Below, piece by piece: positions 2,196-64,000 of a stretch of 64,000 nt of DNA (position 1 is the stretch's first letter; each line of letters begins with the position of its first letter). The notes below the pieces were generated by a model. The model was given only the letters and a program-made list of their open reading frames with translations. It was not told where the DNA came from and did not search any database. Made by a program: the position numbers and the translations under genes. Origin of the DNA: Lepidurus packardi (taxonomy: Eukaryota; Arthropoda; Branchiopoda; Notostraca; Triopsidae); NCBI GenBank assembly GCA_023053545.1, contig JAKZAN010000001.1, positions 310,001-374,000 of the forward strand, given 5' to 3'.

Positions 2196-4005
2196 ACTGA
2201 AATCGGATTCGTTAGATTGACCTCTTGTCACAGGATTACTCTTCCCCTTCATTTCGCCACCGAAAACTAGAAGAAAATAGAAAAATATTAGCACGCATGA
2301 AATCAATTCATTAACAAAATGTTTAAAACTTACAAATAAGTGTGAACACATCCGCAGAGGAAGGCTCCCAAAACGAGTGAAAACAGAAAACGTATGAAAA
2401 GGAGGAGGACTTTGGAGGAGAAAACTTGCCGAATTTTGTGTTTGTAGACTCCCGACACACAACTAAAACACAACAACACTCGTTTGAGACGTTCGTCCTC
2501 ACTTTTGCATTTCCGGTGTAATGCAGGGATGAAGTAGAGAGCACACATAGAGATGAAGTAGAGAACACATATTTTTGCACTGGCATAGGCCTGACAAGCC
2601 TTTTGCCAAACACCACACGTAACACTTTAAACGCGCACTTGAATTGATTCCAGGTTTTCGTAGATCCAATTGGTAATGTTTTCGAAGATAACGCTTAATC
2701 CGATTGTTAATGTTCAACATGCTTGGTAATGTTTAACTATAAACTCACTACTAGCTTTCACAACATCGCTGGAGAGAAGCAGGTGAGCACTGACTGCTTG
2801 CTAGGGAGCAACTGACGTTATAGGGTTCTTCAGGGTGGACATCCGTTCAAAGGCAACAAACTCTTGAAACTATCCGGACACGGTTTGGTGTTTATACGAA
2901 AACACATGCAGTGCTACGCAGCTTCGGTTCGGGTTCGTCCATCCATGGTAGCGAATCAGAGAACGGCTTGCCAAACCGAAACTTGTGGCGAATTCGAGGG
3001 CCAGAACCGAGCCACTTCTTATGTCTTCGCTTTCTTCTAATGGACGGCATTTAACAACATACATTAATAATGTCATTGAGATGTTGTTAAGTAGTAACGC
3101 AGGAGTTCCAATGGATAGCCTATTTGAATAAAAACAACAACACTAGTACACAGAATAAAATAAAACAACAAGTCAAAACTTACTCCGCCTCTTCATCACC
3201 ACACCAGAATATAACGCCCCTTTCCTGCTGGTCCTCCACAGGCCCCACAATGCACCCGAACCACGCCCTCCAAAACCCAGAGAAGCTCCGTTGCTACCGT
3301 TGAAGACTTAACACACTCGTGGTATTTCCCAATGCGAAATATTAGCACAACGGAGCTCTACCTCAAGCCTATTGGACAATGACAAAAGCAGATATTAATA
3401 CAAAAAGATCGAGTTCATTAAAACTAAAAAATGGATCTTGCGTAACGAACATCAAAGACGAATCTGGTAACTGCGGCTCACAAGTTTCCTCGTCTTCTTC
3501 AAAAGTGGGCGGAGTTCAGCGTCAGAAAGGCTTCAAATGGCTCTCATCTTGGGTAGTCACGCAGTGAATCCAGTTGAAAGCCTTCCCTTCGTTTTCGCCG
3601 AGAATTCTAGAACAAAAGAGACAAGCATCAGTATTATGTCAAAAGTATTAGGAGAAAAACACCCTTCTGCTGGCTCGTTCGTGCCTTGGGGTGTTCAGTG
3701 AGTCTCTACTAGTTGATACTAGATGGCGCAGTTTGTAGGGTTTAGTGCAGCTTGCAAACATATAATGGACTCTTCGATTGGGGAAAGAAACCAGAAAGCC
3801 ACTTTGGAAAAAATTCAAACAAGTTCTTACCTCGACTGAGCGAACACGTGGATCCCTCCCAAAACAGCAAACATCTGGAAAACAGGGCAAATCGCAGCCG
3901 GATTCCACCACACTCTTCAACTCCGGGCATATGTGGTTCTCCTGGCGGCTGACACAGCACATGAAATAATAGCTGTCTCCCCACAGCCTCAGCTTAGCAG
4001 AACAG
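2196..4005. repeat. Segmental duplication, copy B with about 630-bp extra segment
   Basis: Same block as 896-2082. Copy B carries about 630 extra bases (about 2360-2992) between two parts that are adjacent in copy A. Either copy B gained an insertion or copy A lost a piece. I see no terminal inverted repeats on the extra segment, and its origin is not recognised. Confidence 0.7.
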
Positions 4006-4760
4006 GAAGAGGGAATGGATGAGCACCACACGCTTAACACGTTGTAGTACTATCACTCATTGTGAAATGTGGCACAGTCTAATAAATAGAAAAGGAACTC
4101 TTAGAAAACACCGTTCAGGTTTAAGCACAACTCTGTAAGGGTAGTAAGCTTTGGCCAGTTTAAGTTGAGTCACTAAAACAGTCACCCCACCCGACTTGAC
4201 ACATCAAAAAAGGAACTGGAAAAATGCTAAAGAGAAAATCGGGTTTCGTGAAAAATAGAAAGAACGAATCGTTGTCTGAGTAGAGGAAATGGAAGGCACT
4301 GCGGGAACTTGACACTAATGGCAATATGTAGCCAACGGGGAGCGAAGAAACTTGAAAACGTTCGAAAAATTGTTCGAAACCTACTGACGCTAACCCTCGG
4401 GAATTATGTCGAAAATGCTCAATATTGCTACTTTTAATGAGCAAACTGTGCGAATATGCATGCTGCTTGCATACTATACAAGTGTTGGGTGCTTTCACTT
4501 TGATACAAGTCGGATGGGAGTCGATAAACTTGAAATAAAACGGGAGCAAAATACCTGACGTGTAGAAGGTTCTAGTTTTGTTCGCAGACGAGATTAATTC
4601 CGTCGTCATCGACAAGCACCGACAAGTGCCGACAGAGGGCTGTACCCATTCGCCAGAAACCATGGCAACGTTACGAGTATCGTGATTGGGCACTGCGTTG
4701 GGTGAGTGTGTTTAAACTCCATATTCTGACATTTTGCGTGTTAGCAATACTATCCCCCCC
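4006..4760. repeat. Diverged repeat D, copy 1
   Basis: Continues directly from duplication copy B and recurs, more diverged, at 5775-6780. Shared landmarks include CTTAACACGTTGTA (4032 and 5801), AATGGCAATATGTAGCCA (4317 and 6337), ACTTGAAAACGTTCGAAA and GAGGGCTGTA. The 177-aa open frame on the minus strand is not preserved in copy 2, so this is treated as non-coding repeat DNA. Confidence 0.6.
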
Positions 4761-4767
4761 CCCCCCC

Positions 4768-4880
4768 AAAATGAAGGACAATACAAATAATTTGAAGGAA
4801 AATACAAATAAAAATGAAGGAAAATACAAATAAAAATGAAGGAAAATGGAAATAAAATGAAGGAAAATACAAATATAAAA
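4768..4880. repeat. Short tandem repeat, about 23-bp unit
   Basis: A unit of the form AAATGAAGGAAAATACAAAT is repeated about five times, with single-base variation, just after a run of C residues. Confidence 0.75.
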
Positions 4881-5492
4881 AAATCACTTACCAAAAAATT
4901 AACAAATCGGAGGAGGGAAAGCATCGCACACCACACGACAGTTCAAGTCTTGACGAATATCTGCGATCTCCTTGCGTCATTTCCATAAAGCATCTGCTCC
5001 AAGGGTCAAACTAAACAGAAGACACATTAATGTGGCAATGAAATCCGTCAAAAGTTGGCTAGGAGCTTACCGTGGATCTCCAGAACGTGGCAGTACTTGC
5101 TACAGTCCCGAAATGTGGGGCTTCCGTGGGTTGGAACAGCCTCCGTTTCAGAGATTCACAACAAATGAGCAGACCAAGCTCACCGTACGATTCTATACTG
5201 AGCTCTATCTGAAGCCCATATATATAGCCTAGGACCAAGCAAATATTCCTTTTTTAAATCTAGTTCATTCCAATGAAACTATTTTACCTCCAGTTGTGAA
5301 CGCCAAGGACGAAACTGGGGGATTTGCTAACTGCAGCTCACAAGACTCTTTGCTTTCTTCTAAAGGACGGAATTGAACGACACAAGAAAGGCACAATGTC
5401 ATGGAGATGTGTTAAGTAATAGTGGATAAATGCATAGCCTATTGGAATAAAAACAACATTAAAAAGAGAATTAAAAAAAGTAAGAAATCAAA

Positions 5493-5730
5493 ACGTACTC
5501 CGCCCTCTTCAACACCACACACGCAATACCGTCCCTTGCCTGCTGGTCCTCCACCGGCCCACAACCACGCCCACCAAAACCCAGACGACCATGAAGACTG
5601 AACGGGCCTGCTCGTGGTATTTCCCCATACGGAATAGTAGCCAAACGGAGCTCTATCACAAGCCTATTAGACAATGACAAGGCAGATATTAATAGAAAAG
5701 ATCGAGTTCATTGAAATCAAAAAATTCAAA
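5493..5730. repeat. Diverged third partial copy of the 1.25/3.18 kb block
   Basis: The segment beginning ACTCCGCC, with GCTGGTCCTCCAC, CTCGTGGTATTTCCC and AGCCTATTAGACAATGACAA in the same order, matches 1260-1500 and 3180-3430 but is clearly more diverged and has deletions. It links the A/B duplication to the repeat D region. Confidence 0.6.
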
Positions 5731-5774
5731 CCAAAAGGCCGCCAAGAGGCACGGGGATCAAGTTGGCTGAGTGG

Positions 5775-6780
5775 AACGGGAGGAGGGAAAGGACCACACA
5801 CTTAACACGTTGTAACAATAGAACTGTTTGTGAAATTTGTCACCACCTAAGAAGTAGAAAAGGGACAACTCTTAGTAATACTGTTCATCTTTAAACACAA
5901 CTTAACACGGTTTTAAGCTTTGACAAGTTGAATTTGAGTCTCGAAAAAAGTACGTCATCCCACCCGACTAGAAAAATCAAGATGGCGGAACAGGGTGGGG
6001 ACAAAAACGTTCGCTGGAGCTTTGACCGGGACCGACAATGGCGGCCATGCGGGAAATTTTCATATTACGTTTTTTAGCCGGAATATTGCTAACTTTGTTT
6101 GCATTGATAATTTTTTAAACCCAAAAATGGGATTACCCTCCGAGGGTTGATCTTTGTTGGTAGTCATGAGGATTGAGGAATTAAAAGAAATCTGGAAATT
6201 ACTCAAATCAGATTTTGAACATTTTCGTGAAAAAATAGGATAAACAAAATCTTCGCCTTACTAGAGGAAACAGGAGGCATAATATGATAACTTCATAATA
6301 TGATAACTAACTGATAACTGGTTGTTAATTGAATTAATGGCAATATGTAGCCAGTGGGAGCGAATAAACTTGAAAACGTTCGAAATCTACTGACGCTTAC
6401 CCCTGGGAATAATGTCGAACATTATCAACATTGTTACTTTTAATTAAGAAAATGTGATAATATGCAAGCTGATTGCACAATAGTTAGGTCTGTTTGCCTT
6501 TCAGTTGGATAAAAGTCGGATGGGATTAAAAATAATTTGAATAAAACGGGAGCAAATTACCTGACGTGGAGTCGGCTTGGCGTCTGTTCACAAAATGGCT
6601 GACGGGATTAATTCCGTCCGCTATGCAAAGTGGCGGCGAGTGCCTACAGAGGGCTGTATCCATTTCGCCACAGGCTATGGCAACGTTAGCAACGTGATTG
6701 GGTAGTTTTTTTCTAATTCCGTATTCTGGCATTCTGCGTTCTAGCCATACTATTCCCCCCAAAAAAGAAAAATTAAAGAA
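5775..6780. repeat. Diverged repeat D, copy 2
   Basis: Second, more diverged copy of 4006-4760, with extra sequence around 5990-6230. The order of landmarks is conserved, so it is a duplicated block and not scattered short repeats. It ends in a polypyrimidine/purine stretch like the one after copy 1. Confidence 0.55.
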
Positions 6781-25318: not shown

Positions 25319-40769
<15,451 letters not shown>

Positions 40770-46815: not shown

Positions 46816-48449
46816 TATTATTTTTTAATTTAGTTCTTCAACGAATAAATTCACATTATTTGCAAAACCATATGGACTTATCTAGCTTGAAAGGACACCA
46901 TTTTGAAAAAAGGTTTCATAATTACAAGGGCTAACCGAACTCATACAAGTCAACAAAGACAATTTAGTAATAATTGAGTTTTCGTTCCATCATTTTCGTT
47001 AGCGAAGCAGTCCATCCTTGAAGAACGTTGAAACAAACGGTCCTTTAGCACCGAATTTCGAACAAGTTTAAGGCTCCCGTTTAGCCTAAGCTTAGTGATG
47101 CGAAACAGTCACAGATGGCACTGATGTATGTTGTTCTTTGGCGAAAGCTTTGCATAGGAAACGGACAGCAAAGCATTCTTCACCTGTATTCTGCACTCTT
47201 CACCTGTACCTTTACTTGAATACTTTCTCTCCCAATACTTGAAACTCTGTGGAAATTGTACTCTCTGTAGAAGTTAAAAGAGCTTCTATCGCAATTGCAC
47301 TCTCTGTAGAGGTTAAAAGAGCTTCTAACCCTTTTCAAATGACTCGTGCTACGCCTGTCCCTTACAAATACCGGATTCAAGATATGCATTCAGAAGCTAC
47401 TCAGGAAATCGCTCCTTTAAAGCCAGATTTATCTCAAACTCGCACAAGACTAAACAGAAAATAGGATCTGTTTGATCTAGGCCAATGTTTCGGCGCTTTT
47501 CAGGCTGCGTGAGCGACCATGATAGGGGCAGCTATTATTGACCTTTAAAAGGAAAAAAATTCAGAGGGATTGGGAAGTCTGTATGGGATAGGATATACGT
47601 GGGGACACTGGCAAACTGACAGACTTCGGGGGGTAGCAGGTGTATTTGGCCGGGAAGATTGACTCGGGCCAAGAACAACAATCAATCCGTCGACCAAGTG
47701 GCTCCGCGCGTCCAGACCCAAAGCTCTCCTTCCCCTCCCGCAGCATTAAGAAAACAGCAAGTTTCCCTCAAAACTCGCTCCCCTGTGTGAGTCACTTAAA
47801 CAATGCCAGCAACCTCCCTCCGGTTTCCCAAAAAACGCCCTCACTTTCCCTTCAAGTACGAGTTTCCGGGATTGGAAGCAGCCAGGTTTTTCGCTTTTCG
47901 GGGGAAATTACGGAAGAGCGTGTGACGCTAGCCTACATTTGCATGGTTTCGCCCTGGAATGTTCGATACGGGTACGTGGCCACGCCGCGAGGTCCCGAAA
48001 GTTATTTCCAGCACCGGGTTCGCAGCACATGGCATGCCAGACCTAAGAGAGCGAGAGCGAGGGCGCAGAGAACAAAACGAGAAGAGCGAGACCAGAACCA
48101 GACCACTCCTAAACCATGCCCCACACGCCGGAGCCTGGCGAACTAAAAATATTTCTAATCGTGCTCTCGACCAAGTTCTGCTGCCCGCAAGCCCTCTGCT
48201 CGCACACAGTTTACGGTCGCTTTCCTTTCCGAAACTTTTTCGTTTCCGCCACAAATGTCTCGTTTCTTAATTTCTTACTCGTTTGCTAGACAAACAGACT
48301 CGACATCCTTCCCCCCTAAGCTCTGCCTAGAGCCACTTTGCATGCCATCTCGAAAATAAAGGAAGAAATGTAATAATAATAATCATCATCATCATCAAAT
48401 CTTCCGTAAGCCCCACAACGGAACGACAGACCCGGGGGTACTTGTTTCT
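46816..48449. other. Intergenic DNA, no gene seen
   Basis: A short tandem duplication of about 42 bp (ACTCTCTGTAGAAGTTAAAAGAGCTTCT, second copy with GG) lies at about 47260-47330. The part from 47640 to 48250 is comparatively GC-rich and open in several frames on both strands, but carries no recognisable protein. Confidence 0.45.
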
Positions 48450-49350
48450 TTTCGAATTTGAATGCATTTTGAATTTCTTTTCGAATTTCGTGAATTGAAT
48501 CGAATTTTTTTCTTTTGAATTTGAATGAATTTTGAATTTCGTTTCGAATTTGCTGAATTGAATCGAGTTTTTTTCGTTTGAATCTGAATGCATTTTGAAT
48601 TTCGTTTCGAATTTGGTGAATTGAATCGAGTTTTTTTCTTTTGAATTTGAATGAATTTTGAATTTGGTGAATTGAATCGAGTTTTTTTCGTTTGAATTTG
48701 AATGAATTTTGAATTTCTTTTTGAATTGGGTGAATTGAGTCGAGTTTTTTCTTTTGAATCTGAATAAATTTTGAATTTCTTTTCGAATTAGTGAATTGAA
48801 TCGAGTTTTTTTCTTTTGAATCTGAATGAATTTTGAATTTCTTTTCGAATTGGGTGAATTGAATCGAGTTTTTTTCGTTTGAATTTGAATGAATTTTGAA
48901 TTTCTTTTTGAATTGGGTGAATTGAATCGAGTTTTTTTTCTTTTGAATTTGAATGAATTTTGAATTTCGTTTCGAATTTGCTGAATTGAATCGAGTTTTT
49001 TTCGTTTGAATCTGAATGCATTTTGAATTTCGTTTCGAATTTGGTGAATTGAATCGAGTTTTTTTCTTTTGAATTTGAATGAATTTTGAATTTGGTGAAT
49101 TGAATCGAGTTTTTTTCTTTTGAATTTGAATGAATTTCGAATTTGGTGAATTGAATCGAGTTTTTTTCTTTTGAATCTGAATGAATTTTGAATTTCTTTT
49201 CGAATTTGGTGAATTGAATCGAGTTTTTTTCGTTTGAATCTGAATAAATTTTGAATTTCTTTTCGAATTAGTGAATTGAATCGAGTTTTTTTTCTTTTGA
49301 ATTTGAATGAATTTTGCATTTCTTTTCGAATTTGGTGACAAGAATCGAGT
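48450..49350. repeat. 63-bp minisatellite, about 14 units
   Basis: The unit GAATTGAATCGAGTTTTTTT then CTTTTGAATTTGAATGAATT then TTGAATTTC.TTTCGAATTTGGT is 63 bp. Shorter units of about 51 bp have lost 12 bases. Because the period is a multiple of three and stop codons are absent, two minus-strand frames stay open for over 300 codons. This is explained by the repeat and not by a gene. Confidence 0.92.
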
Positions 49351-52300
49351 TTTTCCTTTACCTTCCTAAAGCCCCATGCAGCGGCAGATATAATCCTATG
49401 ACGTCACGAGTATCGAACCTATTCACTTTCACACGGAAATGGCTGAGCCTCCGAATTTTTTTTCCTCTCCTGACGCACTGAAAGAACACGAGTTTCAAAG
49501 AGTATTTTTTAAAAAAAATAGGGATACCGTCCAGCGCCAAAGTTGCGACCTAAAGGCACACTCTGTCGAAGAGGGACTGGTGGTAAACTTCAAACGCGGA
49601 ATTCTTCTTGGCAGGCGTGGTCGTCGGCTTTCTTCAGCCTCCCGCGCCAAGCCGCCAATTTAAGAGGGAATTTCGCATAACACACTCCGTCACGGAACCT
49701 TTCTGTTTTCGACAGTTTGGCCCCACTCGAAACTGAAAAAGCCACGTGTCGGCACTATTGGGACTTTGGGGGGGGCAGAATGGGTCACCTACTCCGCCCG
49801 AACATGGCTCTGAAACGTTCTTTCAGGCGGCCGTGGGAAAGATTCCTCTGAACCAAATCCCAAGAAAATTGGTGGATTTTGGGGGGGCAAATCTACGAGC
49901 CCGCGGAAGAAGAGCTCGCCAAGCGACTCGACTCGACACTCCGGGAAGAGCAACTCGGGAGGTTTCCGCAGACGACTCAGGCGGCCGTTTTGAGTAATGG
50001 ACGAACGGGAGATCGATAGAGCCCGCGAGGGCTCCGGCTGCTCCGATCCTGGTTTTTAGCCTTGGCCCGAGAGACGGCCACCAGAAACGGTATTCTCTTT
50101 CGTTCCTTTCTGCGCCACCGCGCGCGCAAGTTTCGCGTGCGCAATTCAAGCAAAACCCTCCGACCAGCTTAAGCTTTTCCCAGCTCTGCTCGCGGAATGA
50201 ATGACACGAAATGAAAACGAGACCGCAATACCAAAGTCGCCCTGTACTCTACTCGGCAACCGAAAGCACAACTTTCCAATACAGCTAAGCCCCGCCCTCC
50301 CGACAAGGCAGTCATCTATTAGCCGTAACGGGCTTCCGGCGTTGTGGGATATTTATCAGCGCTTTCGGAAGGAATGGAGCAAAATTGGCTTGACATCGTC
50401 ATGAATAAGATAACCGGTTCTTTTCCCTCTTCTTTCTACTGAAAAAGAAATGTTGTCAAATGTTGAAAAAGAAATGTTGGTCAAAGTGAGCAGTTTTTTT
50501 GCTAGCTTCGGTGAAGGTGCTTAACAGGAACAATGAGGGGAAAACACGTTCTTCGGGGGGTACGCAAGAGATTTCAATCAATACCAATGGAATTCAACGG
50601 AAAAAAGGAATTTGGCTTTTACATTTTAAATTCCGGGTTTTGCATTCATACGCTTTTTGACCCCAGTTCCCGCTGAGTTTCGTGTTCGGGCCAATTTCGA
50701 TACAATGTTCTAGTTCCGGTATTCTTGCCCGTTTTCTTTCCTTTTCAGTACAGAGAGCAACTTGAGCGTACGGCTTTAGAAAATAAAAAAAAACTTTTTT
50801 AGCTTCAACACTTCTCCAAACAAAACACAGTGGTAAAAGCAAATCGTTCCCATTCCTTCCTTCACTGCAGTTGGCTTTATTTGGGAAACAGCGTTTCAGT
50901 AATAGTCTTCCTTAATACTCATGTTTTAGATACAATACTCATTTATACTGTTTTATACTGTTTTATACTGATTATGATACTGTTTAGATAGTAAATACTC
51001 ATGTTTCATTGATGTATAGACATGAGCCAGTCAATATTGAATAGTATTCAATCTATACTTAATGAATAATATTCCATGCCTGCAATCCGCACTAATATTC
51101 CGCAAACATCCAATATCATTCAACAATCCATTAGCACCATTAAGGTCAGACCTACTACTAGTAAAGTACTAGTAAAGTACACAAAAGTCAAGTAAAGTAA
51201 CTAATTTTTCGCAATTTTAATTTCACCCAATTTCCGCTACACTTTCAAGCTGAATACCGTCAATTCTGTGTCGTCCCGTCCCAGTAAGAAAAGCAGTAAT
51301 TCCGTCCACGATAGAAATCCGCACACCGGGAACGCCCTCCCCGTCGAGCCTGTCAAATGAACCCTTTCTTGCCCGACACCGGTAATAAAAACACTCTACA
51401 CCACTGAAATAACCACCTGTGTATGTACCTAACCAGTTGCTGATCATCCCATCCCTCTATCGCTGCAAAAGTAACTACTCCCTGATTCGCCCCGTAACGA
51501 TATCTAACCAACTGAGCCGAACCACAAAAAAAAAAAATCCCCCCAAAATCGGCAAAGCCTTGTTTGGCCCGAATCAACTTTTCCCATGGAACCAGCAATC
51601 AATAAAGCTCAGCTGGATCAGCACTGATACACACTTTCTCCTTCCGCTCCTTGAGCGCAACCGGAAAGAAAACCCGCCAGCACTGACCTCGACCCACGGA
51701 TCTTCCATCATCCCAGTCAGAAAGCGTTTCAGGACGCATAATGAATGGCATTCTACCACATCCTAACTCTCTGTTTCATCACCCTCGAGTGCGGAACCCA
51801 TATTCATGATTCACTTTATTCACTAGCATCATTTCCCTTGATTGGACAGCAATCGGCCTGTCATAGGAACACGAAGCAATATCAACAACTAACTATATCG
51901 AGTACACACACTCGACGTCCGTAACGCCGACTCATCACGTGAGTTCCGGGAAAGGGAAAATGCAACACGCTACTTTGTGTAGCGCTTAATGGTAAAACGA
52001 CACGCTGGCGATCATCAAGATGCAGTTTGAACGACTCCTTTTATTTTCAATGTTTTATTTTTCAACTGCCTGGAGTAGGTAACGCTATATTAACAATTAG
52101 GAATTATTACATTCTTCGGGGGAGGAATTCTTTTGCAGGGCACAAGAAATAGTTGGAGAGAAGCGTCCGAAAGCAGGCGAAAATGTTTCTGGTCCGAGCG
52201 GAGGCCCGAAGAAAGGGAGACAATGCAGTTGGCAAGACTCCCACGGAAGATCGATAGGAGAAGCGGCTCTGATCACAGCGGAAACCGGCCAGGCCCATTA

Positions 52301-59500: not shown

Positions 59501-62500
59501 GTTACTCAGAAGAAACGACTCTTCCAGCACTCATGTGACCACAACTCCAGGAAAATTATACAACAACCGCGTGATAGAGTCATCACGAGGCCTACCCCGG
59601 ATTAAGAAATTCTTCACGCGCCTAAGAAATTTAGACGAAATTCGACCCAAGACAGCGTTACATCGGCAACGTGATCCACGGTCTACCTACAGCATGAAAC
59701 GTGTAGTACGGCGCATTTTTGACTACTGCTGATCCAATCTTTCCATTAAGAACGCATTTCAACGGGCTACAGAACATGGTGAAAATTGGCAAGAGTTCCC
59801 TTTTAAAAAGGCAAAAGGCAGAAGGGTGTTCCCTTTTAATGTAAATCTAAACATAGCAACAGACTAAATATGAAATATGAAACTGTCCATCAAACCCAAT
59901 GATCTTAATGCCAGCTTAGCCAGGAGGTAAATTCAGGTTGCACTACCCCCCAAAGTTTTAGAAGTCACTAAGCAACCAATCTAAAGTCGGTGCTGACCTT
60001 TCAAAGTTGTATCAGATCATCAGAATCGTCCATGACCACAAAGCTGTTATCTTGCAGTCTAATTCGGAATGCATGTACTCAAATGGCGTTTAGGATTCAG
60101 TTGAGGATTAAGGTGACTTCTTACCTCTCTGAAATAAGGGATGTATCCCCTTTTCACTCCAGATTTCAATTTCCACTACGAAACCCCAACGCACGGTGAC
60201 TCAAGCAATGCTAAGCCGATTTTCCAAAAGTCCACGAGCAACAACTGACACTGAGCTCTGCGGGAATTCAACTATCGGCCAAGTGTGTGAAAAACATGTC
60301 TTTTGCTGTACTCTCCACGCCCTACGAGCTCGACAATAAAGGCACGCACATGATAACACCGACGTCAGCTTCGAAAGCCCCTCCCATGCCCCCGAAAAAC
60401 TAAATTACAAAAAAATTAACTCGGGGTAATAAGTGCCTTCTTTCATTCCCGCTACACTAGCTTCCAAACCACCTCCATGCCTGCGGACAACTAGATTCCG
60501 GCACTTACGAATATCCCAACGACAACACTATAGAATAATAAAATTCCAGCGTGGAGTCAAACCAAGCTAGCCGTTCCAGCCGCCGAGCTTAAGATCTAAA
60601 GTGACTGCATAACTATGTCGAGGCTGACTTCTCGCAAGAGGACTTTGTGGTCATGTGGTTCACCGGCCTCAATTGTTTCCTTTCTCTCCAATTTGTTTTT
60701 CTTTTTTGGAGTGGGCAATAGCTGTATTGCCCAAGTCCATAAAATCCATTTTACAAACAAGCTAGATCACCGAAAATAACTGGAAGACAGATCAAGTCCT
60801 GGGAAATAAAGAAATAAACTCAATTTTAACGCGAAACTCAAAGTTCCCAACTTTACGATTACGATAACAAGCAGAAGCTCCCAGTGTTTGGAAGGAATCG
60901 TCCCCAGCTGGGGGGTTTACGCCCTAATTATAACCCTTCCCCTCCTTAGCCCCCATTTTCGAGTCTCGAAAAATCGAACTTGCCCCCTGCATCTGCCAGT
61001 GAGAGGGTATTGGTTTCGTACGAGGCAATGCCAGCAACAAACAATTTACTTGTATGCTGTATACTTGTATACGTGTAGGCCCCAGCCCCTCAATGAAAAT
61101 CTCCTAACGGTTCCCAAGCGCACATTCATTGTTGCTCATTGCGTGCGTTCTGACGTCTGAGCCTCGGATACATGTACTTTCTCAGCCATGACGGCAATAG
61201 CTCAGGCCCGTAGCCTTTCCACGCATGCTTTGCCAAGCCATTTCTTCATTATTGCCAAAGGTGAGAGCGACTAAATAGCGGGCTAGTAAACAAGATCACA
61301 TAGACAGTAGACGATTTTTACCAGACACGCGTGACAAATTATCGGACCTGACGATCTTTCATTCACCGGCGTTGGGCGCGGAGAATACTGATTTCCAAAG
61401 CGGTTACTGTTGCAGCTTCGCCCCAAACTTTTGGCAGATAGTCCCAGAGAGTTCCAACCAGGCCAAAAAGCGCTCATGCTTTCCGGCCAACTAAAGCCTA
61501 GGAAATCGAAACCAAAAGTTGAGAACGTTGAGAAACCGGTCAATATTTCAGCGCTCCATTCAGACTGTACTGTTCTTTTTTGGTAAACTACCTTCCTTGT
61601 CATAGAACGAGACATTCCGGCTGCTTTTTCTCCCTTTGCTCTCACATACACACGTATACAACAAGTCCTAGGACTACAGGTCTTGAATAAAGATAAACCT
61701 GTAATGTAACCTTTCAAAAACACGCATGCTTGCTCACGGGGCGTTGCCCAACCCAACTGGCCTAGTCCAATGCATGCAAAAATTACACAATAAAGAGCTA
61801 ACTTGATTTGTATATACCTTACATGTTTCGGAGTATGGAAAGGAACCGACTTAAACCGTTGGCGATTCTTTGAGAACCTTCTAGAACTAGATTCTATGAA
61901 AGTCGCTAAACGGCGAAATTGTGCGCTAAATTTGTTCGGTCAACCTGTAATATCTAGCGTAAAAACTGTTTTCAAAGCTGTTGTTGTGCATGTCAATGGA
62001 CCTCCTACTCCCAGACCGGCAACGAGCCCCAGGCTCAAGAAGAGTCGAGCCGGCCATGGAAAAGTAAACCCGACCGAAACGATAAGCAAGCCAGGAAAAT
62101 GACACAATTGGGGGGTGAAAAACGTTGGAAGCTTACCAGATCCAAAGCGCATCGATTCGTGAGTGAACGCTACGCACGTCAAGATGAATACAACTTCACG
62201 CGAGTGTTATTTAACCACTAAAATCCAGTAAAATAGCCGCTGCCATCACAACTTTTACCCACACCTAAACTCTGCCGTTCACTGACTGCCAACCGTCCTC
62301 CTGGTGGCGCTGGCGCATGCGAATGTGATAATCCGAAAGCCGGCTCCGAACCGCTTTTAAGACACCATCGCTTTTGGACATCTCAAAACGACTCAAAACG
62401 CCATGAAATTATTCGGAATCAACATGAGAAGCTCGTTTTTATTACAGTAATACAAGTCATAAGTAATAGCTCGTTCCACTAGCTGCACTGGTGCAATATG

Positions 62501-62987
62501 TTTGGCAAAAGATAGACATGTTTGACACACCGAGTGCAAAAAATGGGGCACCAGTGGAGCATAAGTAGACGGGTTCGGGTTGTGCAAATTTTGAACGAGT
62601 TAGCGATGAAATCATACCCTGGTTTGGCTAAAACATTGTCGAAATTATTGAGCGTACAAAACGGTATAAACATCAATGAGCAAAAGCGAGTTCCGACTAG
62701 AATAGACACGTAATATCACACAAGACTTGTCAGACGGAGGCTTTTAGAGCCCCCTAGAGAAAGCTTATTCAACGGAATGTAACGTGAGGAGACACACGGA
62801 ATGCGAGACGAGCAGCTGCCAAGTACATACACTAATGACAAAGGAGATCCATACAAATGAGCTTCGAATACTCCGACGACGCCGACCTTGGACTTCACCT
62901 GGCTTCCAGCTAGGTATTATTACCAAACAGACACTTCGTATAGCTTCCTTATTTGTGGAGCATGGTTGAGATATTGACGATTCGCAA
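56570..62987. other. Gene-poor intergenic DNA
   Basis: No conserved coding sequence was recognised. A poly(A) tract at 57290-57316 is preceded by AATAAA at 57260, the spacing of a polyadenylated transcript, which suggests a retroposed sequence in plus orientation. The lowest part next to 62987 is likely 3'UTR of the minus-strand transmembrane gene. Confidence 0.4.
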
Positions 62988-63717
62988 TTAGACATCAGCG
63001 ATGGGCATGACTTTCACAGCATGAGGCTCGTACTTTCGCTGCCCTGATGTCACTTCTTCGGGCATTCCGTTCAGTTTCATCGTGTCGTCCTTACCTAAGG
63101 ACATGAAGAGATTAATAGGCTGTATCGCATGTTTCTATGGAAATTGTGGGAACTTTACTGTAAGCTACAATGTCGTTTTTGAGGTAGCGTACACGGCAGG
63201 TCGGGAACAAGGGACATTTGCTCCAGAAGCAGCAAATGCTCACGACGACTGCGGCTATTACGCAGAGTAAGATGACAGCTATAGAAACAAGCATCACGAG
63301 CCTGGAACCAAGTAAGATAGGGCATTAAAAAAGCGCAATTGCCGGTTATAAAGCCGGTCCTTACTGCGATGGGCCCAAATGGCTTGCAGTTAAAACGCAA
63401 CACGAGCTGTTTCGCGTATGGCAGCACTCGACTAGTTCTGGTGAATCATTGGGCCTGGGACACGAGTATGTATTGACTTCTTGGTAAAAAGGCACTGAGC
63501 TTCCGTTCACCATGTGATTGACAACAACTCCCTCAGATACGCAAACTTTGCTGCCTAAAATAGGAAATACGAATCAGTTCTCAAGTATGTGATTTTAATA
63601 CGGATAAATCTTACCTTTTACAGTCAAGAAATGCATGACGCACAAGAACGCAATAAGCATAAGATAATGCCGCTGAGAAAGAGAAAAAACGGTCATTTTG
63701 AGGAGACTTTTTGCCAT
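62988..63717 (-). CDS. Shisa-like single-pass membrane protein (180 aa, 4 exons)
   Basis: Exons on the minus strand: 63717-63615, 63554-63365, 63301-63159, 63094-62988; introns 60, 63 and 64 bp, all GT-AG and in phase. The product has a hydrophobic N-terminal segment (LMLIAFLCVMHFL, about 19-31) that fits a signal peptide. A short ectodomain follows with exactly six cysteines (39, 66, 78, 79, 86, 87) in the order C-C-CC-CC and three N-glycosylation sequons (N51, N70, N83). Then comes a transmembrane helix (about 99-121) followed by CC and two more cysteines. A 50-residue charged cytoplasmic tail ends MPIADV. The C...C...CC...CC arrangement just before a transmembrane helix is the signature of Shisa-like adaptors (for example VOPP1: ..DCCGSRCC..). 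Shisa/VOPP1 relatives regulate receptor trafficking; no PPxY motif is seen in this tail. Identification is structural, not a close homologue match. Confidence 0.7.
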
Positions 63718-64000
63718 TGTTTAAGAGTTTATTTTAGTCAACCACACATCACTCGAGCAAAGCATGAGACTTGAGACTGCCGTGAACTGCGAACGATGAC
63801 CTGATGACCCGTGATCTTGATGACCCGTGAGCTTTAGATGTGGACCTGAAACGTAAGCCGGGACCGACAAGGAACAACGAACTAGTCCCAACGGCTAGCG
63901 GTGGTTTTCGAGAGGACAGACAGAAGGGGTGGAGGCGTGGAGACAGTACGGATAGAAAAGAAATTTCTTGTTTTAATTTCAATTTCAGTTTTTTTTATTT
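63718..64000. other. 5' flank of the Shisa-like gene
   Basis: Expected to hold its 5'UTR and promoter. GATGACCCGTGA is repeated near 63802-63830. Nothing else was recognised. Confidence 0.4.

Follow-up and report, generated by a model that had tools for sequence, protein, structure and literature searches.

According to one account (PMC10531659), members of the Shisa family are built of a signal peptide, a cysteine domain, a helix and a C-terminus that is rich in proline and can carry PY or PDZ motifs; in the same account, zebrafish Shisa-1 to -5 carry cysteines after the helix, and the zebrafish cysteine pattern is given as C*C*CC*C*CC*C. A wider Shisa-like set (STMC6), defined here at second hand, is characterised by a six-cysteine C*C*CC*CC luminal pattern before a single helix, and the Drosophila protein CG15760 appears there as a candidate Shisa-like protein (PMC5578492). 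Here, I describe a gene on the minus strand of a 64,000-nucleotide stretch of the notostracan Lepidurus packardi (the window; contig JAKZAN010000001.1, C1:310001-374000) and propose, with moderate confidence and on the basis of sequence comparison, that it is a real and intact gene, with no second copy found, encoding a type I single-pass membrane protein related to the Shisa-like six-cysteine adaptors, either as their descendant or through a common ancestor.

The gene runs from 63717 to 62988 in four exons of 103, 190, 143 and 107 nt, whose joined 543 nt encode 180 amino acids followed by a stop, no frameshift being required. The three introns, of 60, 63 and 64 nt, each read GT...AG, and unspliced reading hits stop codons inside each of them; retention of intron 3 would yield an alternative short tail with a premature stop. 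Joining the exons thus bears out the four-exon, 180-codon frame of an earlier note on this DNA; the accompanying remark that no single frame stays open beyond about 90 codons is close to correct, in that a frame of 96 codons from stop to stop lies at 63155-63445 of the minus strand in another frame. Simple scans for open reading frames overlook the gene. Of the whole model, the 5' end is the least secure, the start lying at 63717 or 63765; the former is retained because it needs no extra intron and stands in a good start context.

The joined product contains the C-C-CC-CC ectodomain, the three N-glycosylation sites, the transmembrane helix and the short tail that had been predicted. Residues 1-35 resemble a signal peptide by eye (a basic start, the hydrophobic LMLIAFLCVMHFLTV and a small residue before the likely cut, after VKG), the start codon being uncertain. 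The ectodomain (residues 36-98) holds six cysteines, C39, C66, C78, C79, C86 and C87, and sequons at N51, N70 and N83, of which N70 (NDSP, with a proline after it) may be unused. As in Shisa proteins, one transmembrane helix follows the cysteine domain: residues 99-121 (LVMLVSIAVILLCVIAAVVVSIC) are strongly hydrophobic, with a hydropathy peak of 3.3 near 99-118 and no aromatic motif. Four lysines or arginines in the 20 residues after the helix, against one in the 20 before it, suggest a type I orientation. The tail (residues 122-180, 59 amino acids) has cysteines at 122, 127 and 133, contains five prolines and ends in IADV; scanned for [LP]PxY, Yxx-hydrophobic, acidic di-leucine and a PDZ-type [ST]x[VLI] end, it yielded none of them, and [LP]PxY is also absent from all three minus frames between 63160 and 61500.

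Gene structure is the strongest link to Shisa. The same genome (a 108.6-Mb assembly of 344 contigs, used for all own-genome searches) carries a canonical Shisa at C4:8776049-8776171, minus strand (42.7 bits to PF13908, cut-off 22; locus L006, C4:8774549-8777671), whose ectodomain-helix segment matches the solved shisa-3 homolog 5m0w_A at 1.4e-5 and which has CCLCPGC after the helix and three PPxY motifs in its tail (PPVY, PPQY, PPNY); its signal-peptide exon was not found at L006. The two genes agree in their intron phases, 1-2-1, where the signal peptide meets the ectodomain, the ectodomain the helix and the helix the tail. In the local Shisa the cysteine exon follows a polypyrimidine-AG acceptor, two bases complete the codon interrupted by intron 1 (phase 1) and the sixth full codon encodes the first cysteine; exon 2 of the gene studied here likewise starts in phase 1, with the first cysteine as the fourth full codon. 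Intron 2 is in phase 2 in both and splits the codon directly before LLLVLG in Shisa and LVMLVS in the studied gene, and intron 3 lies shortly past the helix in phase 1 in both, where the Shisa gene offers a choice of two donors and two acceptors, each giving phase 1 as read by eye.

The cysteines point the same way. Their spacing is C-26-C-11-CC-6-CC in the studied protein and C-15-C-10-CC-7-CC in the local Shisa, the nearest example of the Shisa family (PF13908; solved shisa-3 homolog 5m0w_A), so that the C2-CC and CC-CC spacings agree within one residue; the succession of ectodomain, helix and tail is also shared. If six cysteines are distributed randomly over 63 residues, the order C, C, CC, CC arises with a probability of 0.0062; the probability drops to 1.1e-4 when the two later spacings must also come within one residue of those in Shisa, a tolerance set after seeing the data. 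Both proteins also have a cysteine cluster after the helix. The zebrafish-type C*C*CC*C*CC*C is found in neither: the studied protein shows C*C*CC*CC, the STMC6 luminal pattern, and the local Shisa domain likewise has only C*C*CC*CC before the helix. The earlier label of Shisa-like is accordingly supported by cysteine order and spacing and by the intron positions and phases shared with the local Shisa.

A number of observations weigh against descent from Shisa. A Pfam search to E 10 gave no match for the ectodomain, with or without the helix, or for the whole product, in the same run in which the local Shisa scored 3.9e-11 to Shisa_N (PF13908). Pairwise alignment with the local Shisa is marginal, its score being reached by 52 of 2000 shuffles for the ectodomain and 53 of 2000 for the mature part; a two-sequence profile that includes the studied protein matches shisa-3 at 3.8e-4, weaker than the 1.4e-5 of Shisa alone, the programs being different. 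The first two cysteines are 26 residues apart as against 15 in the local Shisa, and the tail, with its five prolines in 59 residues, no [LP]PxY and its IADV end, is not the proline-rich, PPxY- or PDZ-bearing tail of the family. Structure prediction of the ectodomain (best predicted local distance difference test score, pLDDT, 72.5, against 42-46 for the remaining four models; nothing in the PDB matching at an E below 3.2) is unreliable and is given no weight. As to the introns, those of the local Shisa were assigned by visual inspection when the model of the studied gene was already known, an alternative Shisa acceptor would change the first phase, and the gene search described below did not recover the Shisa cysteine exon; moreover, phase-1 introns after signal peptides are common.

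Less probably, the locus is a real gene for a small cysteine-rich single-pass membrane protein unrelated to Shisa, with a cysteine order and intron phases that are convergent or due to chance; the missing Pfam match, the weak pairwise score, the different C1-C2 spacing and the lack of a PY tail would all follow naturally, while three equal intron phases at equal domain borders and the close C2-CC-CC spacing would not. Compared with the local Shisa, the studied protein has no detectable profile similarity, a longer C1-C2 loop, and a tail without PPxY where Shisa has three. Because the Shisa_N profile is not matched and the docking tail is absent, the protein is not filed as a member of the Shisa family proper; its architecture is Shisa-like, probably by descent.

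Searches for further relatives were largely negative. The earlier note had proposed profile searches for the Shisa and VOPP1/WBP1 families; profile hidden Markov models of Pfam returned neither Shisa_N nor WBP-1 for the product. A sequence search of the PDB found no credible solved relative, the sole match, an ankyrin-repeat chain at E 0.88, being rejected. With DNA and protein queries against its own genome, only the locus itself matched, in a single-exon search scoring best candidates only. A second genomic Shisa_N match (C3, E 0.75, below the cut-off) shows no cysteine pattern by eye and was rejected, and among viral contigs 16 stretches fit a pattern, none of which proved to be a relative. 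In the literature, judged by title and the start of the abstract, no invertebrate or crustacean counterpart gene was found, which does not prove its absence. Drosophila CG15760, compared by description only, is likewise an arthropod protein with a signal sequence and C*C*CC*CC, but is reported with PY motifs and an aromatic helix motif (PMC5578492), both of which are missing from the studied protein.

If the Shisa-like assignment holds, the protein would enter the secretory pathway, where its small disulfide-bonded, glycosylated ectodomain might bind a partner membrane protein in the endoplasmic reticulum, Golgi or plasma membrane and thereby alter the maturation or delivery of that partner; the cysteines after the helix may be palmitoylated. 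Since the tail is devoid of PPxY and PDZ-binding motifs, recruitment of WW-domain ubiquitin ligases or PDZ scaffolds would not be expected, unlike in the classical members, and the ectodomain and helix would be expected to do most of the work, the protein being a subunit that binds a partner or competes. A bolder and decidedly doubtful extension holds that it represents a Shisa subfamily, in an arthropod lineage, that lacks the docking tail: a Shisa duplicate would have kept the ectodomain, the helix and the ancestral introns, lost the tail on which ubiquitin ligases and scaffolds dock, and come to vie for receptor partners with the full-length Shisa retained in this genome, thereby acting as its natural antagonist. 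Confirmation would mean that this arthropod possesses, besides its canonical Shisa, a divergent Shisa-like gene from which the usual docking tail is missing, and would indicate that intron phase can expose relatives of small cysteine-rich membrane proteins which profile searches overlook. Current understanding would not be overturned; the gene is believable but fairly ordinary.

Whether the spliced frame exceeds chance was addressed by a dynamic-programming gene search of positions 62400-64000, blind to the proposed model and run at varied intron penalties, with codon scores trained on 1,947 codons (taken from three long kinase frames and from parts of the window and of locus L008 recognised by eye as coding) and generic splice-site matrices; controls were 500 dinucleotide shuffles per penalty from -8 to -14 and 50 real overlapping 1.6-kb tiles, both strands, from 41-62.4 kb. 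At penalties of -11, -12, -13 and -14 the search returned the identical three introns and stop. From -8 to -14 it favoured the start at 63765, with an extra upstream intron, over the proposed exon 1, and the control scores therefore apply to the model starting at 63765. The best score was reached by 2, 0, 0, 0, 0 and 1 of the 500 shuffles at penalties -8, -10, -11, -12, -13 and -14, respectively, and by 0 of 50 real tiles at every penalty from -8 to -14. The codon score of the product's frame is +14 bits, that of the five other frames -26 to -84 (each stop counting -5 bits), and the two other forward frames of the joined exons contain 16 and 4 stops.

Not all of this output favours an intact gene. 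At a penalty of -10 the best model keeps only introns 2 and 3 and the stop, with its 5' part altered; at -8 it differs, with added introns and another end; at -16 it is reduced to exon 4 alone, yet outscores all 300 shuffles and all 50 tiles. Codon usage backs exons 3-4 but runs slightly counter in exons 1-2 (-3.0, -6.3, +5.1 and +17.1, 5' to 3'), and the donors score 11.3, 4.8 and 2.6 for introns 1, 2 and 3. A non-functional locus, be it a chance spliced frame or a decaying gene, would fit the slightly negative codon score of exons 1-2 and the weak donors of introns 2 and 3 relative to intron 1; it is nevertheless improbable, as the shuffle and tile controls, the coherent topology in the right order and the frame free of frameshifts speak counter to it.

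Membership of the VOPP1/WBP1/CYYR1 branch of the Shisa-like set, instead of Shisa proper, is hardly credible: a six-cysteine order before a single helix is in common with WBP1/VOPP1/TMEM92 and CYYR1 (PMC5578492), but the likeness to VOPP1/WBP1 suggested earlier gains no support, given the absence of a WBP-1 match (PF11669; none for the product to E 10, nothing at the locus in a genome-wide profile search), of a PY motif and of an aromatic helix motif. The lone PF11669 match of the genome lies elsewhere, on the small contig C274 (E 0.0079, below the cut-off, with stops), beside a frame read by eye as a Rab-like GTPase, and was rejected; PF10873 gave no match in the genome, but also none in control genomes, and is hence uninformative.

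Table 1. Parts of the Shisa-like gene (positions within the window) and of its surroundings, with the stop-bearing kinase matches of the assembly.
Feature	Position	Strand	Remarks
Exon 1	63615-63717	minus	ATG in context aaacaATGg; signal-peptide-like segment; phase 1 at end
Intron 1	63555-63614	minus	60 nt, GTAAGA...TTTTAG, phase 1
Exon 2	63365-63554	minus	ectodomain C-x26-C-x11-CC-x6-CC; three N-x-S/T sequons; phase 2 end directly before helix
Intron 2	63302-63364	minus	63 nt, GTAAGG...TTCCAG, phase 2
Exon 3	63159-63301	minus	transmembrane helix, juxtamembrane CC-x4-C-x5-C cluster, start of tail; phase 1 at end
Intron 3	63095-63158	minus	64 nt, GTAAAG...CCTTAG, phase 1
Exon 4	62988-63094	minus	remaining cytoplasmic tail; stop codon 62988-62990; no PPxY, no [ST]x[VLI] end
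AATAAA	62438-62443	minus	sole AATAAA from the stop to 61501; candidate polyadenylation signal
Kinase matches with in-frame stops	small contigs such as C73-C318		loci L015-L043 except L026, L041

To the left, the nearest recognisable gene, with its start near 40.77 kb on the minus strand, reads by eye as a plasma-membrane calcium pump; the only support for that reading is a Pfam match below the cut-off (E 0.15) in the frame 28516-29265, and the frame at 40.5-40.8 kb has no Pfam match. To the right, beyond the window, a gene for a signal-peptide-peptidase-like intramembrane protease is recognised by eye on the plus strand (L008, about 3900-6000). The gene had been called the only convincing one in the last 23 kb; as a partial check, 11 of the 75 frames of at least 75 amino acids at 40-64 kb were submitted to Pfam and none matched. 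Neither Rfam (gathering thresholds) nor a tRNA scan found anything in the window. Within a 63-base tandem array at 48445-49354, minus-strand frames overlap and stay open over as many as 358 codons; these look like a by-product of the repeat.

Some features of the assembly at large were also recorded. A TTAGG array, the usual arthropod telomere repeat, is clear at one (C3) of the eight contig ends inspected and supports an arthropod source. Among 41 COX1 matches, those on C1, C2, C4, C5, C6, C21 and C38 carry in-frame stops, mostly TGA, which suggests that mitochondrial insertions are numerous in this assembly. No stops occur in the three matches on C43, C52 and C214, which may be bacterial.

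As regards protein kinases, 27 of the first 30 of 131 matches lie on small contigs, all 27 with in-frame TAA/TAG and two also with one TGA, whereas the other three, on C1, C2 and C5, have no stops; lower in the list, some small-contig matches are without stops and some chromosome matches have them. The stop-bearing kinases fit a ciliate that reads TAA/TAG as glutamine and is present in the same assembly, perhaps as an epibiont or symbiont. On C1 and C2, two kinase frames (L041 and L044; 371 and 345 codons) share N-terminal stretches that are nearly identical, and a frame of 357 codons on C5 (L026) appears to resemble them; this suggests a kinase family that is dispersed and possibly retrotransposed.
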